From NCBI GenBank assembly GCA_025355875.1, contig JANXYV010000169.1, positions 1 to 35,827 on the forward strand: DNA of 35,827 bases, written 5' to 3'. Both the position numbers and the translations under genes were made by a program. The notes beneath the pieces are model-generated. The model saw only the letters and a list, made by a program, of their open reading frames with translations. It ran no database searches and was not told the DNA's origin. This DNA is from Prolixibacteraceae bacterium (GTDB lineage Bacteria; Bacteroidota; Bacteroidia; Bacteroidales; Prolixibacteraceae). Below are positions 21,541-24,639 of the stretch, one piece after another; position 1 is the first letter of the stretch, and every line of letters starts with the position of its first letter.

Positions 21541-24500
21541 TTATTTCAATCCTGAAATCTGTTCTTCCAACACTTTGATTTTGGCTTCGGCATCAGCTTG
21601 TTTGGCGCGTTCAATAGCAACTACGGCTTCGGGAGCGCTGCTAACAAAACGTTCGTTGCTCAGTTTCTTGATCACCGAATTAAGGAAGCCAGTGGTATAA
21701 TCCAGTTCTGCCTGAAGTTTTTTCAGTTCTTCCTTCACGTCAATGGTTCCGCCCATCGGCACAAAAAAAGTTGTCGATTTAACCAAAAATGATGCAGCCA
21801 GTTTTACTTCTTCAGAAACCTGATTCAAGGCTGAAAGGTTACCCATTTTTAACAATACAGAATTAAATTCAGGAGCAAAACCTTTGTCTCCAACCATTAC
21901 AGACAGTTCGAGCTGATCTTTTTGTGGAATATTGTTTTTGGTCCGGATGGTTCGGATTCCAGCGATGGCTTCTTTAACTTCTTCAAATTGAGCGATCATA
22001 GTTTCGTCGTAACCGGTTGATTTTGGCCATGAACTGATCATGATGCTGTCGCCTTGCTTGCGTTCTTTCAGCAACTGCCATATTTCTTCGCTCACAAACG
22101 GCATAAACGGATGCGAAAAGCGCAATACTTCGTCAAAAATATCAATCAGTTCGTCGTAAGTTTTTCCATCGATGGGCTGCTGGTAGGCGGGTTTCACCAT
22201 TTCGAGCAACCATCCCGAAAACTCGTCGCGGATGGTGGTGTACACACTCATCAAGGCATCCGAAATGCGGAATTTATCGAAGTGATCGTCGGTCTGCTCT
22301 ACAATCTGGCTGAATTTTTCCCGGAACCAGCTAATAGCCAATTTCGAATGTTCGGGCTGCGGAATTTTGTTGCTCACTTCCCATCCATTCACTAAACGGA
22401 AGGAGTTCCAGATTTTGGTCACGAAACCGGCGCCTTGTTGCGGAAGGCTTTCGTCGAACAGCAAATCGCCACCGGCAGGAGAGCAAAGCAACATTCCCAC
22501 ACGTACGCCATCAGCGCCGTATGTGGCAATCAGATCAAGCGGATCGGGCGAATTACCAAGCGATTTCGACATTTTGCGTCGCTGTTTGTCGCGAACCATT
22601 CCGGTGAAATAGACATTTTTAAAAGGGAACTGTTGGCGATATTCGTATCCGGTAATGATCATCCGGGCTACCCAGAAGAAAATAATATCCGGAGCCGTAA
22701 CCAGATCGTTGGTAGGGTAATAGTAGTTGATTTCGGCGTTATCCGGATTACTTATTCCGTCGAAAACCGAGATTGGCCATAACCAACTGGAGAACCAGGT
22801 ATCGAGCACATCTTCATCCTGGGAAAGAGAAAAGGAGCCTCCCCTATCCCCTCCCAAGGAGGGGAACTTTGCAATTGCAAGTTCGCGGGCTTTCTCTTCA
22901 TTCTCGGCAACTACGAAGCCCCAAGTCCCCCCTTCGGGGGGATTTAGGGGGGCTGTGCTCTCTATATACCAAACCGGAATCCGGTGTCCCCACCACAACT
23001 GGCGGCTGATGCACCAGTCTTTGATGTTCTCCATCCAATGACGGTATGTATTTTTGAATTTTGGCGGATAAAACACAATGGTATCGTCCATCACATTCGC
23101 CAATGCCGGTTTAACCAGGTCTTCCATCTTCAGGAACCACTGAGCCGACAATTTTGGCTCAATCGGAACGTGTGTGCGCTCCGAGTATCCAACTTTGTTG
23201 TTGTAATCTTCAACCTTAGCCACATTTCCGGTAGCTTCCAGATCGATCATGATTTTTTCGCGAACAGCAAAACGATCTTCGCCAATGTACATTCCGGCAG
23301 CTTCACTCAAGGTTCCGTCTTCGTTGAAAATATCGATGCTCGGCAGATTGAAACGCAATCCGATTTGATAATCGTTCACGTCGTGAGCCGGGGTGATTTT
23401 CAGACAACCGGTACCAAATTCCATATCTACATATTCATCTTCAATAATCGGAATGGAACGGTTGATCAGTGGAACCAGGACCCGTTTTCCTCTCAAATGA
23501 GTGAAACGCGGATCGTTCGGGTTCACGCAAACTGCGGTATCGCCCAAAATGGTTTCAGGACGGGTGGTTGCGATTGTTACAAAAGAAGTCACAGCCCCCT
23601 CAACTCCCCCGGAGGGGGAGCTTTTAAGCGCTTCCTCAATAGATTGTATAACTGGATCAGTGTTCCCTAATACTTCTTCATTTGTAAACCGAATCACTTC
23701 ATAACCAAGGTCTTTCAGAATTTCGGCTTTAATTCTATCCAATTCCTGAATTTTCGGGTCATTGTGATATCCTCCGTCAACTTCAATAACAAGATTTTTT
23801 GAAAGGCAAATAAAATCAACTATAATATCATTAATGATGTGTTGTCTTCTAAATTTCTGCCCTAATTTATTCGCACGCAGCATTTCCCACAGTACACTTT
23901 CAGCTTCAGTTGAGAACTGACGTAATTCTTTTGCATTCTTCTTTAACAGTTCATATTCCGATTTCCTGGCAGTCTTGTAAAGGGGATCTTCTTTCCCACC
24001 TCCGGGGGGACTAAGGGGGGCTTCTTCGATTCTGTATTTCAGATAGTACAATTTCGATTGCATTTCCCTGAAAATTACTTCCTCATCGGAAAGGGCAGTT
24101 TTTGCAGCCGGATCCCAGTTCACCATACGAACTCCGCGATAGATCAGGCCTTTGTCATACAAATCGACAAATGTCTTGATGACCGATTCGCTGCGAACCG
24201 CGTCCATCGTGAATGCGGTACGATCCCAGTCGCAGGATGCGCCCAGTTTTTTTAACTGTTCCAGGATAATTCCGCCATGTTTGTGGGTCCATTCCCAGGC
24301 ATGATTCAGGAATTCTTCCCGGCTCAGATCAAATTTCGAAATTCCTTCATTCTTCAGTTTGTTTACCACGCGTGCCTCGGTGGCAATTGAAGCATGATCG
24401 GTTCCCGGAACCCAGCAGGCATTCTTGCCCAGCATCCTGGCGCGGCGGGTTAAAATATCCTGAATGGTATTGTTGAGCATGTGGCCCATGTGCAACACTC

Positions 24501-24639
24501 CGGTCACGTTTGGCGGCGGAATGACAATGGTATAAGGTTCACGCTCGTCGGGTTCGGAATGGAAAAACTTGTTTCCCATCCAGTATTGATACCATTTATC
24601 TTCAACTTCGGCCGGGTTGTATTTGCTGGGGATTTCCAT
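21541..24639 (-). CDS. valS: Valyl-tRNA synthetase carrying an in-frame DUF559 insertion, 1032 aa
   Basis: Class I synthetase charging tRNA-Val with valine. The HIGH-type motif HMGH is at residues 50-53, KMSKS at 689-693, the editing motif [13 protein letters not shown] at 357-369, TPAHD near 416-420 and [13 protein letters not shown] at 607-619. The C-terminal coiled-coil tRNA-binding arm is at about 960-1030. The protein is well over the usual length of about 880. The surplus lies in three blocks: about 207-350 (DUF559 nuclease domain with Pro/Gly-rich borders), 561-572 ([12 protein letters not shown]) and 593-602 ([10 protein letters not shown]). Each block coincides with a copy of one palindromic repeat. 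The native ValS sequence resumes in frame on both sides, so the gene may still give active enzyme. No inteins: the Cys/His-Asn splice residues are absent. There is one ATG start at 24639. Confidence 0.93.
22835..22868 (-). repeat. Solo palindromic repeat A inside valS
   Basis: A C/G-rich repeat of about 34 bases: a CCTCCCC block, TAT, a CCCCTCCC block, AA, GGAGGGG and AACT. Read in valS it encodes [10 protein letters not shown] (residues 593-602). It is the same orientation as copy C and inverse to B and D. It is inserted between native ...ELAIAKF and FSLSQDED.... Confidence 0.8.
22924..22954 (-). repeat. Solo palindromic repeat B inside valS
   Basis: The cleanest copy, 31 bases. On the plus strand AGTCCCCCC, TTC and GGGGGG form a hairpin, followed by ATTTA and GGGGGGCT. 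In valS it is read [10 protein letters not shown] (residues 563-572), the same frame and almost the same peptide as copy D (APLSPPGGG). It lies between native ...WYIE and [10 protein letters not shown].... Confidence 0.82.
23593..23622 (-). repeat. Palindromic repeat C, downstream end of the DUF559 element
   Basis: AGCCCCCTCAACTCCCCC is followed by GGAGGGGGAGCT, with a hairpin CTCCCCC/GGGGGAG. In valS it is read [10 protein letters not shown] (residues 340-349). It is inverted relative to D. Confidence 0.8.
23623..23976 (-). other. DUF559 (Vsr-like PD-(D/E)XK clan) endonuclease domain within ValS residues 222-339
   Basis: The domain starts [21 protein letters not shown] and includes [13 protein letters not shown] (241-254), KFRRQH (262-267), IVDFIC (273-278), [10 protein letters not shown] (284-293) and [14 protein letters not shown] (311-324). 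These follow the DUF559 family pattern with nothing missing. Asp275, Glu286, Asp288 and His292 are the candidate metal/catalytic residues by comparison with Vsr-type nucleases, so the nuclease could be active. Function in this setting is unknown. Confidence 0.85.
23995..24022 (-). repeat. Palindromic repeat D, upstream end of the DUF559 element
   Basis: In the valS sense direction it runs AGCCCCCC, TTAGT, CCCCCC, GGAGG, TGGG and encodes APLSPPGGG (residues 207-215). It pairs with repeat C as an inverted terminal repeat. It is inserted just after native KYRIEE. Confidence 0.82.

Follow-up and report, generated by a model that had tools for sequence, protein, structure and literature searches.

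Inteins are in-frame selfish inserts that bring a homing-type nuclease into conserved enzymes, and in REP-RAYT systems dispersed hairpin repeats are accompanied by a cognate nuclease-type gene, the RAYT, which is a Y1 HUH transposase. Palindromic insertions can also persist in coding sequence: Rickettsia palindromic elements and in-frame REPs are tolerated inside protein genes, and the sections of PMC3733652 used here do not describe the Rickettsia elements as carrying a nuclease gene. Homing endonucleases of the EDxHD family are borne by introns or inteins or stand free, and have long DNA-binding parts; the portions of PMC3943268 and PMC9403480 drawn on here describe for them neither repeat ends nor residence as an unspliced domain. 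A DUF559 gene has been placed in this family (PMC9403480), and DUF559 is also mentioned in PMC12907096. A further class comprises the intrastrand triplex repeats BoxC, PIT and TM, which follow a three-block rule of hairpin plus mirror strand and belong to a G/C-rich purine class (PMC4666352; Holder et al. 2015). According to the parts of that paper considered here, the E. coli triplex repeats have a short second loop and come in TTA and CCG types; MG1655 holds 23 TM repeats, always intergenic and in five cases arranged as inverted pairs; a triplex fold is reported for TM_ECO; the repeats are associated with instability; and no mobility gene was found near TM repeats.

The locus described here lies in a window of 35,827 nucleotides (the whole stretch of Prolixibacteraceae DNA that was analyzed), in which the gene for valyl-tRNA synthetase holds a nuclease domain between two repeats of the triplex type. 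Its features are as follows.

21541 to 24639, minus strand: valS, the host gene for valyl-tRNA synthetase, 1,032 amino acids including the insert (open frame; Pfam and NCBIfam valS models).
23584 to 24024, minus strand: the whole insert, ValS residues about 206 to 352 (comparison with empty orthologues).
23994 to 24020, plus strand: triplex-type motif, hairpin plus mirror strand, at the left end (5' in the gene); encodes APLSPPGGG (motif finder).
23595 to 23620, minus strand: triplex-type motif at the right end, an inverted copy of the left-end one; encodes 10 residues (motif finder).
23626 to 23946, minus strand: DUF559 (PF04480) nuclease domain, ValS residues 232 to 338 (Pfam match, alignment).
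22838 to 22865, minus strand: triplex-type motif at a second site in valS, without nuclease (motif finder).
22925 to 22952, plus strand: triplex-type motif at that second site in the opposite orientation (motif finder).

The window's list of open reading frames gives valS as a single uninterrupted frame, in which Pfam recognizes tRNA-synt_1, Anticodon_1 and Val_tRNA-synt_C, with DUF559 inside (E 5.1e-31; its 107.2 bits exceed the cut-off of 20.6, which makes it a member of the family). The initial annotation had taken ValS residues about 207 to 350 for a foreign segment that contains a complete DUF559 domain and has native ValS in frame on both sides. This account was borne out with slightly wider borders: because empty ValS orthologues of the genus read through this place, the foreign segment can be set at about residues 206 to 352, and native sequence picks up again at Phe353. 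Judged against the same orthologues, the insert replaces a few host codons of a turn and is thus not a clean addition, and no target duplication could be made out by eye at its borders. The insert lies immediately before the TTRPET motif, just as the insert in LeuS precedes TTRPDT and that of one IleS class precedes WTTTPW; on the basis of these short motifs, the three seem to sit at equivalent positions at the base of the editing domain. The four candidate active-site residues named in the initial annotation (Asp275, Glu286, Asp288, and His292) do not vary among the 74 aligned DUF559 sequences, the window's own counted, and neither do Asp301, Arg317, and Asn320; the conserved acidic and histidine residues may be catalytic.

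The domain also has matches among known structures. The DUF559 profile matches PDB 3hrl (E 1.5e-28), and the profile that we call A2 matches I-Bth0305I (PDB 3r3p) over profile positions 26 to 104 at an E value of 1.4e-7, which we accept as homology. I-Bth0305I keeps the glutamate and has alanine in place of Asp275, asparagine in place of Asp288 and tryptophan in place of His292; since three of the four key residues differ, we regard the valS DUF559 as a relative of I-Bth0305I and do not file it as a member of the EDxHD family. With the homing endonucleases of that family, as far as they are described in the sources cited above, it shares detectable homology and the lifestyle of a selfish nuclease at conserved genes, and it differs from them in its ends. 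An intein can be dismissed, in line with the initial annotation, which had seen no splice residues: no splicing model occurs among NCBIfam matches up to E 1 or Pfam matches up to 0.001. A group I or group II intron was likewise rejected, given that nothing in the window attains the gathering score of an Rfam family and that the frame is open throughout. These two results together imply that the DUF559 domain probably stays, unspliced, in the mature enzyme. Unlike inteins, then, the valS element is bounded by repeats, matches no splicing model and is probably not removed. We favor the reading that it is a copy of a small selfish, homing-like nuclease element with triplex-motif ends that is kept unspliced in the enzyme, and we put the probability of this reading at about 0.6.

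DUF559 recurs widely in related genomes. It was found in 54 of 101 genomes (the own genome and 100 relatives), which together hold 101 matches of at least 60 bits, 27 of them in open frames of at least 500 amino acids, and 164 of the 392 genomes in a sample of the phylum match DUF559 at E 1e-20. The own genome has two copies. The other one (L001, contig C205) sits in frame in a methylase-like gene, so named by motif, and is flanked by a different type of repeat. For comparison of hosts and ends, 81 loci were screened, of which 7 lacked the signature and 6 more were dropped (three duplicates, two weak matches, and one misread frame); a scan of named genomes with a profile of embedded copies supplied the best 80 of 580 loci, Bacteroidota as far as titles tell, of which 4 were dropped (three duplicates and one without the signature). 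This left 144 DUF559 loci, the window's own copy counted, with 104 embedded and 40 free copies in the tests of the ends; the Bacteroidota loci having been taken by top score, these numbers do not estimate what share of copies is embedded. The search for repeat-flanked DUF559 domains elsewhere, suggested in the initial annotation, thus succeeded, and many of these copies are in frame in large genes. Hosts identified by Pfam or NCBIfam models, mostly by one example each, are ValS, IleS, LeuS, RecG, MetH, HsdR, UvrC, MazG, a CCA-type PolyA_pol, GH31, a methylmalonyl-CoA mutase fusion, urocanase, guanylate kinase, PurL, a DEXH helicase, and a DegT aminotransferase; the remaining host genes were assigned by short motifs. 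DUF559 lies at the C-terminal end in HisD and TrpF and at the N-terminal end in guanylate kinase. In a tree of the domain (144 rows, 125 labelled), the host label changes 18 times, compared with a mean of 76.7 after shuffling, a contrast to be read with the few columns of the tree and with the kinship of the sampled species, which adds to the clustering. This suggests that nuclease lineages are largely bound to their sites, as is the case for homing endonucleases. RecG and MetH account for one change each and ValS and LeuS for three each, and the fidelity is imperfect, with eight changes for IleS, four of at most about five for ISP-type methylases, and seven for free copies.

The initial annotation had described the borders of the insert as inverted copies of one C/G-rich palindrome. 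They are indeed inverted copies of each other, but they are not simple palindromes: each consists of a block S, its reverse complement S' and a third block T that mirrors S', and both ends of the valS insert fit the intrastrand-triplex rule (S, loop, reverse complement of S, loop, mirror). In the set of loci, the third block was tested for its fit to a mirror and to a direct repeat, using a pattern that requires polypurine tails while leaving their order free and that finds both ends in 42 of the 104 embedded copies; it yielded 115 ends, of which 99 were asymmetric and 90 unique. Among the latter, the mirror fitted better in 75 cases and a direct repeat in 5, with 10 ties, and the mirror score averaged 6.91 for the 99 asymmetric ends, as against 5.49 (standard deviation, 0.07) when the tails were dealt anew.

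A motif finder built on this rule (stem of 7, at most one mismatch per pairing), which was devised after sight of the repeats and of the E. coli region treated below, reports four triplex-type motifs in the window, every one in valS, compared with one in total over 20 mononucleotide shuffles of the window. Two of the four surround a rewritten linker at 22838 to 22952, with no nuclease between them, and this second place has no motif in two relatives (G018 and G012) and others. Within 200 nt of DUF559 the density of motifs is 2.06 per kb for embedded copies (n = 104) and 2.05 per kb for free ones (n = 40), versus 0.096 and 0.215 per kb elsewhere in the same loci and none in 140 kb of scrambled sequence. 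Under the strict rule, motifs are present at both flanks in 55 of the 104 embedded copies and in 20 of the 40 free ones; 71 of these 75 pairs are inverted, and 65 have the mirror strand outward. A generic hairpin score, which exceeded its 95% threshold on both sides in 28 of the 103 embedded copies scored and in 8 of the 40 free ones, was too blunt and was therefore replaced by a G/C-run motif and then by the triplex rule. The simple G/C hairpin pattern marks both flanks in 65 of the 104 embedded copies and in 18 of the 40 free ones (shifted controls, 1/578 and 3/214), and the two flanks match each other in inverted orientation. With BoxC, PIT and TM, as far as PMC4666352 was taken into account, the ends share the rule of hairpin and mirror, the G/C-rich purine class, the short second loop, and the arrangement in inverted pairs, and they too may fold into triplexes. 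Whereas the repeats of MG1655 are intergenic, those described here form the borders of a nuclease gene and are found, in frame, within essential genes. In their in-frame insertion in a protein gene, seen for solo and paired repeats in valS, they resemble the Rickettsia palindromic elements as presented in PMC3733652, from which the valS element differs by carrying DUF559. Two solo repeat-like matches of the own genome (L004 and L030) fall in open frames of 881 and 782 amino acids, which suggests that copies lacking the nuclease can lie in frame as well.

The association between DUF559 and triplex-type motifs extends beyond the Bacteroidota. In E. coli K-12, a motif that obeys the triplex rule lies about 175 nt past the 3' end of ycjD, a DUF559 gene, and looks like TM_ECO. 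Among 38 plasmid records, one place was opened in each of 21; the 17 unopened records are from Escherichia, Klebsiella, Neisseria, further Azospirillum or Sinorhizobium, or are partial matches. A motif occurs within 250 nt of DUF559 in 14 of the 21 plasmid loci, from hosts that include Azospirillum, Picosynechococcus, Synechocystis, Pseudanabaena, Deinococcus, and Sphingomonas, and thus in 15 of 22 loci when ycjD is included; the other 7 show no motif within this distance. The background in these 22 loci is 6 motifs in 57.6 kb, and a binomial calculation on that rate gives a chance of 5e-12 for 15 of 22. By sample, the counts were 9 of 11 and 6 of 11, the second sample of plasmids having been opened once the finder was fixed. 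Several motif-flanked DUF559 genes (L350, L352, L353, L354, and L262) lie within operons (suf, paa and hpa), separating one gene from the next, as between sufB and sufC, between paaD and paaZ, and among hpa genes. The arrangement fabI-ycjD-sapF (L256 and L257) was located in 3,362 of 5,426 E. coli genomes, counting those in which a single place holds 80% or more of the query. In the one other strain that was opened, R12, an efflux cluster adjoins fabI and the stretch shown has no ycjD, so that no clean empty ycjD site was found there. A phage origin was considered and rejected: the search with YcjD gave no viral relative, the phage collection gave two weak matches, and among the viral loci found with profile A2 (80 kept of 124), none of 79 distant ones has a motif near the gene, the close relative L268 alone having one.

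Could the repeats be the sole mobile units, moved by a RAYT-like transposase or by replication slippage, with DUF559 as cargo caught between two copies? The numbers of repeats argue in this direction: the own genome has 72 matches to the repeat pattern (overlapping ones counted) versus two DUF559 genes, and one relative (G089) has 51 matches and no DUF559, which points to another mover or a lost one and also counts against our favored reading. By genome, the repeat pattern and DUF559 co-occur to a modest degree (27/37 versus 27/64; p 0.004, from hand counts with phylogeny not controlled). The own genome also encodes four Y1 transposases of the RAYT type. The palindromes beside them are, by eye, of other kinds (L112 to L114), and a triplex-type motif accompanies one of the four, at a distance of 595 nt, the other three having none in the stretch fetched; RAYTs were rejected as mobilizers on these grounds. 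Unlike in REP-RAYT systems, the nuclease here is a DUF559 protein, the repeats have a mirror third strand and they do not flank Y1 genes. That DUF559 recurs beside such motifs in several phyla and that the nuclease is under purifying selection (see below) further speak against mere cargo, and we consider this explanation unlikely.

Next to these rival movers stands the question of whether the element moves at all. ValS was found in 20 of the 23 genomes of the genus, the own genome included. The site holds DUF559 in eight of these (G000, G001, G004, G005, G009, G012, G016, and G021), a single repeat at the place of the right-end motif in two (G010 and G020), and nothing in ten, so that the segment, in answer to a point raised in the initial annotation, is not ancestral to the genus. 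Nine of the ten empty genes have no motif in the stretch fetched, and the tenth (G022) has two, at the second site. Outside the genus the site is filled in one genome (G031) and holds two repeats with a short spacer in another (G024). On a ValS tree of 29 rows with the insert removed, occupancy changes 12 times, compared with a shuffled mean of 11.3 and counts as low in 200 of 200 shuffles; occupancy thus does not appear to follow this tree, whose resolution within the genus is weak. Of 56 IleS places, 30 were read: DUF559 fills 5 of them (in the genus, 3 of 19) and is missing there from the others. One filled valS frame (L080, in G016) measures just 662 amino acids owing to a frameshift, a break or an assembly error, and a second ValS match in G001 (contig C233, 1390-1971; 70% identity) comes from a genome that is 66% complete and is perhaps contamination.

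Transfer of the element can be traced in one pair of species. When G021 is compared with G005 at codons that encode the same amino acid, 23 of 125 differ in the insert, repeats included, and 172 of 331 in the flanking ValS (p 5e-11), and the shift is abrupt at the repeats, with 13 of 26 and 19 of 29 differing in the adjoining 30 codons. Between G005 and G016 the contrast is weaker (insert, 45/129; host, 158/334; p 0.016), and between G021 and G016 the host is close (108/356) and the insert no closer (42/128), without a signal of transfer. Insert and host histories therefore disagree, and the unit that moved is repeat-nuclease-repeat, a transfer precise to the element whose sharp signal is confined to the pair G021-G005. 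Classical homing would be expected to co-convert the flanks in the host gene, and this pair shows no such co-conversion.

These observations bear on the alternative of an old vertical insertion, one per host gene, followed by many independent losses and without present mobility. The clustering of nuclease lineages by host site would fit it, and the solo repeats in G010 and G020 could be scars of loss. However, two DUF559 lineages occupy the same ValS site within one genus, the insert is younger than its host gene between G021 and G005, with sharp borders, and between the own genome (G000) and Mariniphaga the synonymous divergence of the insert (pS 0.59) is lower than that of the host (0.87). 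We therefore hold purely vertical descent to be rather improbable.

The insert has dN/dS values of 0.05 to 0.16 in 23 of 24 pairs, with one undefined, and host ValS of 0.03 to 0.06 in the 16 of 24 pairs in which it is defined; the values are rough because synonymous sites are near saturation. By these ratios, the nuclease is under purifying selection. A domain domesticated in the service of ValS, or one with a regulatory or defensive role such as an anti-phage nuclease on a housekeeping enzyme, would account for this low dN/dS and the identical active-site residues, and some hosts are restriction-modification genes, but it is highly improbable in view of functionally unrelated host genes, patchy presence within one genus, and PADLOC matches that are weak, the best (E 1.2e-4) being to a homing endonuclease model.

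With the insert absent from half of the genus and repeat-flanked relatives at other loci, the initial reading of a nuclease-bearing mobile element gains support; we infer both the activity of the nuclease and its role as driver of the movement. The triplex-type structure of the ends, the link outside the Bacteroidota, and the two nuclease-less motifs in valS go beyond that annotation. In the homing-like element that we favor, the unit of the family would be a triplex motif, a DUF559 nuclease related to I-Bth0305I and Vsr, and an inverted triplex motif, and it would move whole, repeats included. Its ends would be read through as loops rich in proline and glycine, so that translation would proceed through a copy placed in frame in a surface turn, leaving the nuclease as an extra domain. 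Spread would most likely be homing-like: the nuclease may cut or nick a conserved gene segment where no element is present, and its repair would then copy the element in. The end motifs are probably structures on which the nuclease or the repair machinery acts, and repeat copies without a nuclease would be its dependents; of all steps in this mechanism, what the triplex fold does is the least certain. The reading is also weakened by the replaced host codons, by the three key residues that differ in I-Bth0305I, and by the DUF559 copies that lack motifs on one or both sides. The lack of flank co-conversion at the one informative pair counts against plain homing, and the lack of a target duplication, together with lineages largely bound to their sites, counts against a plain transposon with terminal repeats.

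In the openly accessible journal literature searched, no paper was found that treats DUF559 and triplexes together, and among the matches listed for DUF559 or COG2852 with palindromes, in-frame repeats or BoxC, no title or abstract describes such an element. We thus did not find it described, which within this scope does not prove priority.

Since relatives of this DUF559 reside in further essential genes and, in other bacteria, next to repeats of this kind, the nuclease is a good candidate for spreading such repeats. It is tempting to speculate further, albeit at somewhat less than even odds, that this is a distinct class of mobile element, in which DUF559 nucleases move intrastrand-triplex repeats throughout bacteria, BoxC, PIT and TM with ycjD in E. 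coli included, by recognizing folded three-strand DNA, and which in the Bacteroidota can live permanently in essential enzymes as translated, unspliced domains. DUF559 would then be a candidate mover of BoxC, PIT and TM repeats that is testable in E. coli K-12, and a nuclease family of unknown function according to Pfam is now tied to a defined DNA structure. Selfish DNA may thus occupy essential genes without splicing, and could be a source of new enzyme domains.
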